Shown here piece by piece: positions 1 to 39,363 of a stretch of 39,363 nucleotides of DNA. Each line of letters opens with the position of its first letter. The stretch's first letter is position 1. The notes below the pieces were generated by a model. It was given only the letters and a program-made list of their open reading frames with translations, was not told the DNA's origin and ran no database searches. Source of the DNA: a virus; the IMG/VR virus record IMGVR_UViG_3300023082_000022, positions 1 to 39,363 of that record; one strand, 5' to 3'. A program made the position numbers and the translations under genes.

Positions 1-83
1 GGCGCTGGCTGGCCCGCGTGATAATGACCGCAGCAGGCATCCAGAAGATTGCCGCTGCCGCAGGGACAAACTGAACTGCTCAT
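1..83 (-). CDS. ychJ: YchJ-family (UPF0225) SEC-C protein, N-terminal fragment, host gene
   Basis: Host gene cut by the window edge; about 27 codons are visible, starting at the ATG at 81-83. The visible protein begins [20 protein letters not shown], which is the cysteine-rich SEC-C-type zinc motif (CPCGSG followed by CCGHYHAG) found at the N-terminus of YchJ/UPF0225 proteins. Its function is not established; the motif binds zinc. The ATG lies only 10 bp after the stop codon of the displaced host gene end in attL (TGA at 94-96), so before integration the two host genes were probably one operon. In the lysogen this gene now follows the phage left arm and late-direction transcription. Family call is firm from the motif; it rests on a short fragment. 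Confidence 0.75.
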
Positions 84-95
84 GAGGTCTCTCTC

Positions 96-199
96 ACCAC
101 CAGTATTTGCCGAAGTTTTCCGGGTTGGCCCAGAACTTGGCGTTGAGCCAGTCCGGGACCTGTTTGTACTCACGCAGATCATAAGTGAACAGGGTCAGC
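96..199. repeat. attL: attL: direct repeat bounding the prophage, left copy
   Basis: Bases 96-191 are identical to 39206-39301 (96 bp). The match continues to 199 with one mismatch (G192 versus A39302) and then ends. On the minus strand the repeat encodes the last ~34 residues of a host protein, ending GKYWW and TGA (94-96). The left junction base (C95) is host and the right sequence beyond 199 is phage. Position 192 G is therefore the phage allele. The crossover lies somewhere inside the identical 96 bp and cannot be narrowed by sequence alone. Confidence 0.93.
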
Positions 200-275
200 T
201 GCCTTATATTCCGGGCCTTTGGAGGCTTACTGGTGGCCGTGTGAGACCTGATCATAACGAGGCTCGACGAGCATG

Positions 276-305
276 TCTAACAGGTTTCTAACAGTCGTCT
301 AACAC
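276..305 (+). other. Candidate integrase arm-binding sites, left arm (three 11-bp-spaced repeats)
   Basis: Three copies of TCTAACAG/C start at 276, 287 and 298, exactly 11 bp apart, so they fall on the same face of the helix. The same octamer occurs twice at 11-bp spacing at 39131 and 39142 near the other end of the element. Short ordered repeats on both sides of the core are typical arm-type sites for tyrosine integrases of the lambda type. Binding is inferred. Confidence 0.6.
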
Positions 306-339: not shown

Positions 340-429
340 GCGATAAGGACCCATGCAGGCGCGATAAGGACCACGCGAGGGCACCCACGGGGGGGGATGG
401 GCGAGTGCGCCCGTAGTGAGGTGGTCCTT
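340..429. repeat. Repeat-rich non-coding segment of the left arm (region 200-537)
   Basis: The 338 bp between attL and the DUF1508 gene has no credible gene. Besides the arm-site repeats it holds a 12-bp direct repeat GCGATAAGGACC at 340-351 and 361-372, an inverted repeat AAGGACCAC (366-374) with GTGGTCCTT (421-429), a G8 run (389-396) and a small GGGCG/CGCCC hairpin near 399-412. A weak match to a phage promoter on the minus strand (CTCACTAC around 413-420) lacks the AT-rich upstream part. In a circularised T7-like genome the single terminal-repeat copy must lie between the terminase gene and the early genes, so it could be here, but nothing marks its ends. Confidence 0.45.
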
Positions 430-537
430 CAGATTTTTCCGTCAAATCTCAAAGGGTCTGATTGCGCCTGTCAGCGAATGCTTGATAGCGTTGTGCAGTC
501 GTTGCGTGGGTAGCGACACCACATGGAGGAAGCCTGC

Positions 538-3135: not shown

Positions 3136-3396
3136 TTAGTGGTGGGTCTCGCCGGGACCGTAGAGTTCTTCGTCAGTTAGCTTCTGAACATCATCGAGCG
3201 CAGCCGACAAGTCGCCCAGAAGGGACGCATTCGGTTGAAGCTTGGCGATGGTGAACTTGTGGCGTTCGAGGAACTTGCCGACGGCGTTATACAATTGAGG
3301 GGTGCGCTTGGCTTCGTCTTGCAAGTCCTCTAAGAGGCTGCGCGCAGTCACCGTATCGATGGCTGTTAGAAGCTGGCGTAATACGTCTTCACTCAT
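3136..3396 (-). CDS. 18: Terminase small subunit (DNA maturase A, T7 gp18-like)
   Basis: Recognises concatemer DNA and works with gp19 in packaging. 86 residues from the ATG at 3396 (T7: 89). This start is chosen for AAGGAG 7 bp upstream; the open frame runs further up through the holin gene but without a site. The matching core is RTPQLYNAVGKFLERHKF followed by IAKLQPN, nearly the T7 sequence. Begins 4 bp after the holin stop and ends 11 bp before Rz. Confidence 0.93.
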   Translation of the reverse strand: MSEDVLRQLLTAIDTVTARSLLEDLQDEAKRTPQLYNAVGKFLERHKFTIAKLQPNASLLGDLSAALDDVQKLTDEELYGPGETHH

Positions 3397-36873: not shown

Positions 36874-37239
36874 CTACAGCGGGTGATTCGCTAAAGCGTC
36901 CAATAGGACTTTCCGAGTCTCTTCCCGCGTAACCTTGAGCGCCATGGCGAGGCACAGCCAAGAGCCGAAACGGAGCGCTTTATACGAGCGTCCTATGCTG
37001 TCGTTGTAGTAATACTGTTCGACCACACACTCTGCGCCCACGCGCCACTCCGAGCCATGCTGCGAGAGTGCGCCAAGAGCAGTAAGCTCATCGATTCCTT
37101 TTTGAATGGTCCTCAAAAGGTCGGAATGAGTTCGTACTGGAGCCATCTCGTACAGCCTCAGAGAGTCCATGTGCAGGTATGGCGCCTGTGCATGGTGAGG
37201 TATCTGGAGGGAGTCTCTGTCTGTTTTTGGCGATGCCAT
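36874..37239 (-). CDS. Unknown protein, possible regulator of the early region
   Basis: 121 residues; ATG 37239 has AAAGGAG 10 bp upstream. Not recognised. The middle RTHSDLLRTIQKGIDELTAL and GALSQHGSEWRVGAE could form a helical winged-helix-like unit, but no standard helix-turn-helix is clear. Ends TREETRKVLLDALANHPL. It stands alone between the phi-OL-like promoter and a gap that contains a 16-bp palindrome, so a role in regulation is worth testing. This is inference from position. Confidence 0.68.
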   Translation of the reverse strand: MASPKTDRDSLQIPHHAQAPYLHMDSLRLYEMAPVRTHSDLLRTIQKGIDELTALGALSQHGSEWRVGAECVVEQYYYNDSIGRSYKALRFGSWLCLAMALKVTREETRKVLLDALANHPL

Positions 37240-37887: not shown

Positions 37888-39174
37888 TCAGGCTGGCGCC
37901 ATCAAGGAACCTTTGAGTGCTTCGACCATTCGTACGATTCGGGCGGTCCTGCCTGCCCCGTATAGATCGAATGTGATAGACCCAGAGCTATGCCCCAGAA
38001 TGCTCTGCGCGATCCCCAGAGGAACCTCAGCGGCCTTCATTGACCCCGCGGCGGAATGCCTGAGCGAGTGAAAGGAGAGGTTGCCTCCAGACTCCAGCTT
38101 CAGGAAACCGCGAAGCATCTCGTTTAGTGGTTTGTTAAACCAATGCTCCTTTGCGGTGAACAGCCTTTGGGAACTGGAGGCTTTAACGAATTCAAGGAAG
38201 GCTGGTAGATCAAATCCATAAGCTCCATCAACGAGAGGAACTATCCGCACCGAATGCTTGTTCTTTAGGAACTTGCCGTTGTTGTCGTTGATGTCGATAA
38301 CCCAGATACCGTTTACCTGCTTAATGTCCTCCGTTGTGAGCTGGTATATCTCACTGATACGAGCCCCCGTGATCGCTCCCAGAGAGAGCGCCCAGCGGTG
38401 CCATGATGTAGCAGGCAAGCTATTCGCCTGACGCATGATGGTCTCTACCTGATTCGGTGTGAAAGCTTCACGCGAGCTGTCAGCCCCTTTGGTGATCTTC
38501 AGGCCCTTGTCGAATGACTTAGTGAGGTAGTCATTATTCACAGCCCAATCCATCACCACCGATAGCCGAGTGAGTAGCTTGTTCACCGTGGACCCTTTAC
38601 GGGTCTTCATCAGAGTTTCTTTGAGCCTCACCATGTCAGCCCGTGTGTGGGCTTTCAGGTCCAGCTCACCAAGAGCACCTGCAATCACATTGCATGAAGT
38701 AACGATCTCTCTAAGGGTGCTGGCCCGAACGTTGTCTTGTTGCTCGGTCTTGTAGAGGTCGGCAAGGAATTCAAACGTCACCGGTTTGGTTACTTCAAGG
38801 GGTCTTACAGATTGAGACGGACGAGCAGGGTAGGCCATAGGATCACTAAGACCCCCATAGATCATTTCATACGCTTCACGGTCCCTCAGTGGCCCAAGGC
38901 AGCCCTCAGCGACCACTTTGAGGTAGGAGCGCAGGTCACTCCAAGTCGCCTGTGGTGCCTCGACGTGGAACGCTGCCAACGACCTCAAGATATCTGCGGA
39001 GACCAGCATGGCTTGTGGGCGCTCTGAGGTCCTCAAAGATAGCGTGAAGGCAGCCTTGGAGCCTGATGGACGTAGACGCAGGTAGTACCGGCCATTTCTA
39101 CGGTAATGCCAGGGCTTTGCGAGCCGAATTTCTAACAGATGTCTAACAGTTGGTCCGTGAGGTGCAGCGTTCAT
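37888..39174 (-). CDS. int: Tyrosine recombinase, phage integrase
   Basis: 428 residues. Integrates and, with partners, excises the phage. C-terminal catalytic domain has Arg272 (TGARISEIYQL), a probable beta-hairpin Lys306, His369 and Arg372 (HSLRHSAAGSM), His395 (ILGHSS) and nucleophile Tyr405 (FDLYGAG). The middle (TFEFLADLYKTEQ to DYLTKSF) is the SAM-like core-binding domain, and the N-terminal RRNGRYYLRLRP is a DUF6538/arm-binding-like strand pair. ATG 39174 lies 29 bp behind the host stop codon with no clear ribosome site or promoter between; arm-type repeats lie within its first codons. The set is complete, so it is probably active. No separate excisionase recognised. Confidence 0.95.
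   Translation of the reverse strand: MNAAPHGPTVRHLLEIRLAKPWHYRRNGRYYLRLRPSGSKAAFTLSLRTSERPQAMLVSADILRSLAAFHVEAPQATWSDLRSYLKVVAEGCLGPLRDREAYEMIYGGLSDPMAYPARPSQSVRPLEVTKPVTFEFLADLYKTEQQDNVRASTLREIVTSCNVIAGALGELDLKAHTRADMVRLKETLMKTRKGSTVNKLLTRLSVVMDWAVNNDYLTKSFDKGLKITKGADSSREAFTPNQVETIMRQANSLPATSWHRWALSLGAITGARISEIYQLTTEDIKQVNGIWVIDINDNNGKFLKNKHSVRIVPLVDGAYGFDLPAFLEFVKASSSQRLFTAKEHWFNKPLNEMLRGFLKLESGGNLSFHSLRHSAAGSMKAAEVPLGIAQSILGHSSGSITFDLYGAGRTARIVRMVEALKGSLMAPA
39131..39149 (+). other. Candidate integrase arm-binding sites, right arm (two 11-bp-spaced repeats)
   Basis: TCTAACAG at 39131-39138 and 39142-39149, same sequence, strand and 11-bp spacing as the three copies at 276-305. They lie inside the first codons of the integrase gene, so binding could also repress or block it. 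Confidence 0.6.
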
Positions 39175-39203
39175 AATGAGGCAACCATTTGATTCTCATA
39201 GGA

Positions 39204-39363
39204 TTACCACCAGTATTTGCCGAAGTTTTCCGGGTTGGCCCAGAACTTGGCGTTGAGCCAGTCCGGGACCTGTTTGTACTCACGCAGATCATAAGTGAAC
39301 AAGGTCAGCACTTGATCGTCCCGTGCGAAGCGTTCATTGAGCTGCAGCGCCAGCGAGTAAAAA
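39204..39363 (-). CDS. Host protein gene, C-terminal end restored by the phage
   Basis: The 3' end of a host gene that continues beyond the window; about 52 codons visible, ending at TAA (39204-39206). The visible protein includes LALQLNERFARDDQVLTLFT, then [17 protein letters not shown] and [13 protein letters not shown] do not recognise it with confidence; a Pseudomonas DUF6231-type protein next to ychJ is a guess. The last ~32 codons are in the attR repeat, so integration keeps the protein intact but changes its stop from TGA to TAA. Confidence 0.8.
   Translation of the reverse strand, partial: FYSLALQLNERFARDDQVLTLFTYDLREYKQVPDWLNAKFWANPENFGKYWW
39206..39309. repeat. attR: attR: direct repeat bounding the prophage, right copy
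   Basis: Identical to 96-191 over 39206-39301, then one mismatch and a further 7 matching bases to 39309. Right of it is host DNA and left of it phage DNA, so T39205 (giving the TAA stop) is the phage allele and A39302 the host allele. Distance between the two copies is 39,110 bp, the size of the circular phage genome with one terminal-repeat copy. Confidence 0.93.

Follow-up and report, generated by a model that had tools for sequence, protein, structure and literature searches.

The window analysed here covers the full 39,363 bp of a virus record, and its gene set is T7-like: a single-subunit RNA polymerase and a family A DNA polymerase are accompanied by T7-type head, connector, tail and internal virion proteins and a terminase, with a tyrosine integrase gene (int) at the right end. 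The two ends carry a direct repeat of 104 bp with one mismatch, and the octamer TCTAACA(G/C) starts at positions 276, 287 and 298 and again at 39131 and 39142, always on the plus strand and in 11-bp steps. The features of the two ends are as follows.

96..199: attL core repeat, 104 bp, 103 of them identical to 39206-39309
117..137 (right copy 39227-39247): likely crossover region, 21 bp, shared with both ends of a small element in Pseudomonas genome G310
251..279, minus strand: predicted sigma-70-like promoter, TAGACA-17-TATGAT, facing the core, and int in the circular form only
276..283, plus strand: predicted far-arm site, innermost copy, TCTAACAG, overlapping the -35 hexamer of the putative int promoter
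287..294, plus strand: predicted far-arm site, middle copy, TCTAACAG
298..305, plus strand: predicted far-arm site, outermost copy, TCTAACAC
420..448, minus strand: terminal-repeat-start motif of Pseudomonas T7-like phages, 29 bases
37888..39174, minus strand: tyrosine integrase, 428 aa (PF00589, E 7.4e-20; best Foldseek match lambda Int)
39131..39138, plus strand: predicted near-arm site in int codons 13-15, reading CTG TTA GA on the minus strand
39142..39149, plus strand: predicted near-arm site in int codons 9-11, reading CT GTT AGA on the minus strand
39182..39194, minus strand: perfect IHF consensus match between the core and the near arm (3 in the window versus 0.78 expected)
39206..39309: attR core repeat, the 3' end of an intact DUF6231 gene
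39207..39363, minus strand: 3' part of the host DUF6231 gene (E 2.1e-22), stop codon at 39204-39206

The ends of the window are a real attachment site. In 4 of the 5 Pseudomonas loci compared (L086-L089) its left and right flanks are contiguous and overlap by the core, which is the empty site, and the fifth locus (L090) matches just the core part of the left flank. One core is common to attL, attR and the empty attB, as in heterobivalent integrase systems. DNA like the DUF6231 gene end is present in 297 of the 298 Pseudomonas genomes searched; six of these hold two copies (G034, G068, G081, G107, G192 and G242), and five of the six are also among the genomes with an int relative. The gene to the left of the core (window 1-95) resembles ychJ. 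The crossover itself is likely to fall within window 117-137, because the small element of G310, which occupies the same gene, has only those 21 bp in common between its two ends. A tRNA gene as attB is not supported, since ARAGORN identified no tRNA and Rfam returned nothing on the window.

A sequence-only reading had proposed the five octamers as integrase arm sites, and their positions, orientation and 11-bp step are all as it described. Its further statement that they occur only at the ends of the element is true of the phased arrays, which are unique in the window, and fails for one solitary sixth copy at 3363-3370 on the minus strand, which is within chance. Nor is the octamer common elsewhere in the window: there are six copies, five of them in the arrays, versus 1.58 ± 1.19 expected, and none of 100 shuffles reaches six. 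The left array is the sole triple of any 8-mer at 11-bp steps in the window, even with up to one mismatch allowed; such triples average 0.013 per window in 300 Markov-1 windows, and a triple with a matching pair was met in none of 20,000 random end pairs. The right pair had been thought to overlap the integrase start codon, and here the reading was mistaken: the ATG is at 39174-39172, and the pair occupies nucleotides 26-44 of the open reading frame, codons 9-15. A separate repeat, GATAAGGACC, lies twice on the plus strand (342-351 and 363-372, 21 bp apart) between the terminal-repeat motif and the far arm; it also lies near the far arm, in either orientation, in 7 of the 14 small elements described below.

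The integrase protein has its PF00589 catalytic domain at residues 238-405, and R272, H369, R372, H395 and Y405, which we take to be the catalytic residues R, H, R, H and Y, are invariant in four integrases. Foldseek with the AlphaFold model (mean pLDDT 57.9) places lambda Int first, with 393-415 columns aligned in five full-length chains, nearly the whole length. The N-terminal domain is weakly predicted as beta-beta-beta-alpha (pLDDT near 65). Among 10 integrase N-termini, Pfam gave no curated arm-binding domain at threshold; below threshold, DUF6538 appears in 9 of the 10 (E 0.0073 to 4). The relatives whose length was measured have 447-509 aa, so that the window integrase, with its 428 aa, falls about 20-80 aa short of them. 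Its N-terminal domain is most like those of L004 and L006 (63%), and its core-binding part most like the lineage with the arm word TGKKACAAA (up to 68%); an exchange between the N-terminal and catalytic domains was considered and set aside, the class means showing no clean separation.

Relatives of the integrase at 41-46% identity are found in phages 3MF5, phTUNSm/phTUNSv and G11 and in four genome contigs, and 59 of 398 Pseudomonas genomes hold a relative at E <= 1e-30; scans of viral contigs with a single protein and with an alignment as queries found none. We compared the int starts of 38 sequences, the window included, by a script that looks for two copies of a TGNNANMA word 11 or 12 bp apart in the first codons. 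Two phased copies are present in 35 of the 38 genes, and the same test is passed by 1 of 684 control windows of 60 bp placed deeper inside the int genes. The three sequences missed by the script are L042 and L044, where the copies are visible just beyond the scanned stretch, and phage G11 (L012 101-120), where the pair inside int is inverted, not direct. The class TGTTAGAA comprises the window, L004-L006, 3MF5 and phTUNSm; the other near-arm classes are TGGGACAAA with TGTTACAAA, TGTCACCA, and TGTTACAA with a 12-bp step. In 3MF5, two further TCTAACA copies with a 9-bp step lie in the terminal repeat (L009 139-155), away from attP.

What keeps such repeats in a coding sequence? An 11-bp step does not preserve the codon phase, so the two copies in int fall in different reading frames. 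The integrases of L004, L005 and 3MF5 have 45-49% protein identity to that of the window, and the codon comparison indicates that selection at the near-arm copies is on DNA, not on protein, because in these four diverged genes the repeat-bearing codons for identical amino acids (GTT AGA and CTG TTA GAA) are the same in 5 of 5 cases, versus 23 of 124 amino-acid-identical positions elsewhere (3 of 43 for leucine, arginine and serine). Codon 14 is the only TTA among the 49 leucines of the window integrase. Within the TGKKACAAA lineage synonymous change in the repeat codons is low, but 10 of 48 sliding windows are as low. Where arm sites double as int codons, the protein N-terminus and its DNA site would have to evolve together.

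The other arm was sought in DNA downstream of int from 16 genomes. A second core was found for 13 of them and the far end of G210 was recognised by its repeats; G003 and G068, for which no second core was found, stand outside the counts. Agreement between the arms was scored in 16 elements (13 small elements, the window, 3MF5 and G11), G285 with its truncated int and phTUNSm (L010) being left out. In all 16, three copies of the int-side word in 11- or 12-bp steps lie inside the opposite end, with 0-6 mismatches over the three copies; the best-fitting 430-bp piece from the interior of these elements has 9-11. The words (TGTTAGAA, TGKKACAAA, TGTCACCA and TGTTACAAG) vary by integrase lineage, with agreement between the two arms of each element; only in G112, G304 and G040 are the TGKKACAAA and TGTTACAAG probes not cleanly separable. 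The arms of the G310 element are of the TGTCACCA kind; the class of G11 is assigned from a weak int-side fit, its pair being inverted. The middle far-arm copy is degenerate in G001, G112, G304 and G040, and some steps are of 12 bp. Since the far ends of the relatives hold three copies of their int-side word, three predicted sites in the far arm and two in int is the general plan, and the motif goes with the integrase lineage.

We conclude that the repeats are, with high confidence, arm-type binding sites of the tyrosine integrase of the window phage, as predicted from the sequence. The arm-site reading suggested earlier is supported by the layout, by the att duplication with known empty sites, by the recurrence of the 3+2 plan and by the agreement of the arm motifs; the agreement between arms and its co-variation with integrase lineage constitute the strongest evidence for putative binding by the integrase itself. 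A recombination directionality factor (RDF) of the Xis, Cox or TorI kind, bending attP and steering excision, would also bind short phased direct repeats near attP, and if inherited with int it would co-vary likewise. Known RDF sites, however, are usually on one arm, whereas the copies here are on both arms in the 3+2 plan and within int, with a motif class that tracks int lineages, and no RDF gene was identified in this analysis; we consider this explanation improbable. A phage repressor or regulator with operators controlling the 279-251 promoter and int would accord with the overlap of the innermost far copy with the -35 box and with the KilA-N/Rha-type regulators common in related elements, but operators would need neither a matching pair across the core in the int coding sequence nor any tracking of int lineage, which makes this explanation more improbable still. 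Chance or protein-driven repetition in the integrase N-terminus, for which the coding position of the right pair and the conservation of V10, R11, L13, L14 and E15 might speak, deserves next to no credence given the same DNA motif at the other end, an 11-bp step that breaks the frame, the 0.013 triples expected per window and the codon identity of 5/5 versus 23/124.

How would an attP built of arm-type sites be arranged and used? In the circular form it would read, towards int: far sites 305-276, promoter-like sequence 279-251, core 199-96 (equal to 39309-39206), IHF-like site 39194-39182, int start codon 39174 and the two near sites 39149-39131 in codons 9-15. By these coordinates it spans 285 bp, with the outermost far site at one end and the innermost near site at the other. 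The N-terminal domain of the integrase would grip the far and near arm sites while its catalytic domain would cut at the core, within the 3' end of the host DUF6231 gene; the attP DNA would be bent, probably by IHF. As attP brings its own copy of that 3' end, the host gene would be made whole again on integration, and the prophage would have the three far sites at attL and the pair within int at attR.

The predicted promoter agrees with the consensus at 10 of 12 positions with a 17-bp spacer; two promoter-like matches are present in a 501-bp region versus 0.1 expected, and its -35 hexamer (279-274) overlaps the site at 276-283. No promoter-like site near int was found in 38900-39363. Comparable sites after the last far repeat match at 10/12 in G002 and at 9/12 in G001 and G112 (spacers 18-19 bp), and the 11 remaining elements of those scored match weakly (7-8/12). 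In the circle, int would probably be read from the far-arm side through the core, and integrase on the far arm would mask the -35 box, so shutting down the promoter of its own gene. Integration would separate promoter and int by about 39 kb, with the promoter-like site in attL and int at attR, so that int in the prophage would be readable only from the host side. Control of int by its own product, which had been suggested for the right set of repeats, is plausible; it is likelier via the left set, because the innermost left copy overlaps the -35 box and the right set lies inside coding sequence. We infer binding, bending, self-repression and the promoter switch, the last two purely from consensus matches.

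In T7-like phages of Pseudomonas, the motif found at 420-448 stands where the direct terminal repeat starts: its match is at 37109-37147 in gh-1 (repeat from 37143), at 39961-39999 in WRT (repeat from 39996) and at 41616-41655 in Laces98 (repeat from 41652), and in 3MF5, where the int cassette has the opposite orientation to the motif, the annotated 277-bp terminal repeat begins near the motif end. Given a repeat length of about 217-277 bp, the terminal repeat of the window phage is predicted to start near 422 and to enclose the far arm, and int is predicted to be the first gene entering the cell.

The same attP plan recurs in 14 small int-bearing elements of Pseudomonas genomes with a recognised far end (L049, L050, L052, L055, L058, L061, L064, L066, L070, L072, L074, L077, L080 and L083), about 6-12.6 kb from core to core. 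In 13 of them int is the sole match to the window phage, and G001 has a gp16-like gene as well. They are small integrated elements with their own int and without a full set of virion genes, as satellites are. The G001 gene encodes 1351 aa and is 44% like the internal virion protein of the window. At L049:11867-15922 (minus strand), in a 12.6-kb element, a frame of 1351 aa resembling a T7-type internal virion protein, with a transglycosylase domain, stands beside an FtsK/terminase-like gene; this element may be a prophage that has shrunk or a satellite equipped with an ejection protein.

The terminal-repeat motif, with up to 6 mismatches, is present in 8 of the 14 elements, 129-190 bp before the last far repeat (165 bp in the window). 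It can be recognised by eye with an indel in G304 and G131, exists only in a degenerate form in G285, and was not found in G002, G310 or G040. A stricter form of the motif matches 26 places in 298 genomes, and the reversed pattern has no match. By hand count, 12 of these places have a same-strand int relative no more than 12 kb away and 2 are about 39 kb off, a prophage-sized distance; 3 are beside a gene for a protein of about 335 aa only, 2 are on the strand opposite to an int and 7 are near neither.

A cluster of KilA-N/Rha-like regulators has 13 proteins from 12 of the 14 elements. The protein of about 335 aa is encoded in 8 of the 14 and an upstream partner of about 131 aa in 7; an example of the former is L058:5180-6193 (plus strand). 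It is present in 23 of 298 genomes, with 26 matches, of which 21 lie no more than 10 kb from an int relative (hand count), and it had no match in 50,697 phage records. Four IMG/VR loci that carry it (L098-L101) carry the terminal-repeat motif as well (up to 5 mismatches). Searches of Pfam and the PDB gave it no convincing match. Only one member of its family (L055:14421-15689) has an Ig domain at the C-terminus, like phage virion proteins, and the protein could be a virion protein. Its identification as a capsid was tried and dropped: there is no profile match to the window capsid and none in the PDB, and the AlphaFold model has a mean pLDDT of 36. The cargo of the elements includes Lamassu-like LmuA/LmuB (G002), a SIR2 protein (G310) and PDC-M34B (G112). 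We suggest, with confidence evenly divided, that in Pseudomonas the attP-int cassette may serve as the mobility module of phage satellites, an undescribed family that T7-like phages package, a reading that takes in the terminal-repeat motif, the KilA-N/Rha-type regulators, the pair of about 335 and 131 aa and the defence cargo. The competing view that the small elements are deletion remnants of prophages is weakened by the gene pair they share, which phages lack.

The prophage life of T7-like phages is still being worked out, and in the available parts of the literature their attachment machinery is mapped as cores alone. The window offers a full predicted attP for one such phage, with a promoter switch that can be tested. 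The 38 natural integrase starts, with about four arm specificities, could serve for swaps or for new Pseudomonas integration tools, and the same cassette leads to small defence-carrying elements, maybe satellites of T7-like phages.

In lambda, the arm-type sites are short repeats flanking the core, bound by a heterobivalent tyrosine integrase. The window integrase is like lambda Int in being a PF00589 tyrosine recombinase with an extra N-terminal part and predicted short-repeat arm sites around the core; unlike lambda, its near-arm pair lies in the 5' coding sequence of int, the layout is 3+2, attB is the 3' end of a protein gene and the phage is T7-like. For IntS of KplE1/HK620, one report has arm-type sites overlapping the int promoter and Int repressing its own gene, which it argues to be widespread (PMC2951348). 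In the window a predicted arm site overlaps a predicted int promoter. The KplE1 promoter stays beside int in the prophage attL (PMC2951348), whereas in the window the two would be parted on integration, with the promoter-like site in attL and int at attR, and sites lie in int codons.

Paired 10-bp direct-repeat arm sites are described for the cluster J mycobacteriophages Omega and BAKA, where two arm-like sites overlap the int start codon and a regulatory role is suggested (PMC3706429). Their start-codon pair is inverted and apart from attP, which is 3' of int (PMC3706429), whereas the pair of the window is direct and itself a predicted arm of attP; the inverted near-arm pair of G11 resembles the Omega/BAKA arrangement. 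Phage vB_PaeM-G11 was induced from a lysogen and a 14-bp att core is reported for it (PMC10142737), and in the T7-like cyanophage S-TIP37 int and attP are reported to be required for integration (PMC8776855). G11 (PMC10142737), the T7-like cyanophages (PMC8776855) and LUZ100 (PMC10134795) combine T7-like genes with a tyrosine integrase, as the window does; the passages available from these papers describe cores or integrases and not arm sites, whereas in the window arm sites are predicted. Within the partial literature consulted, we found no description of these repeats or of T7-like satellites in Pseudomonas. Set beside these systems, what appears to be new is a predicted attP with one arm embedded in the opening codons of int, conserved there, and in agreement with the other arm in each element.
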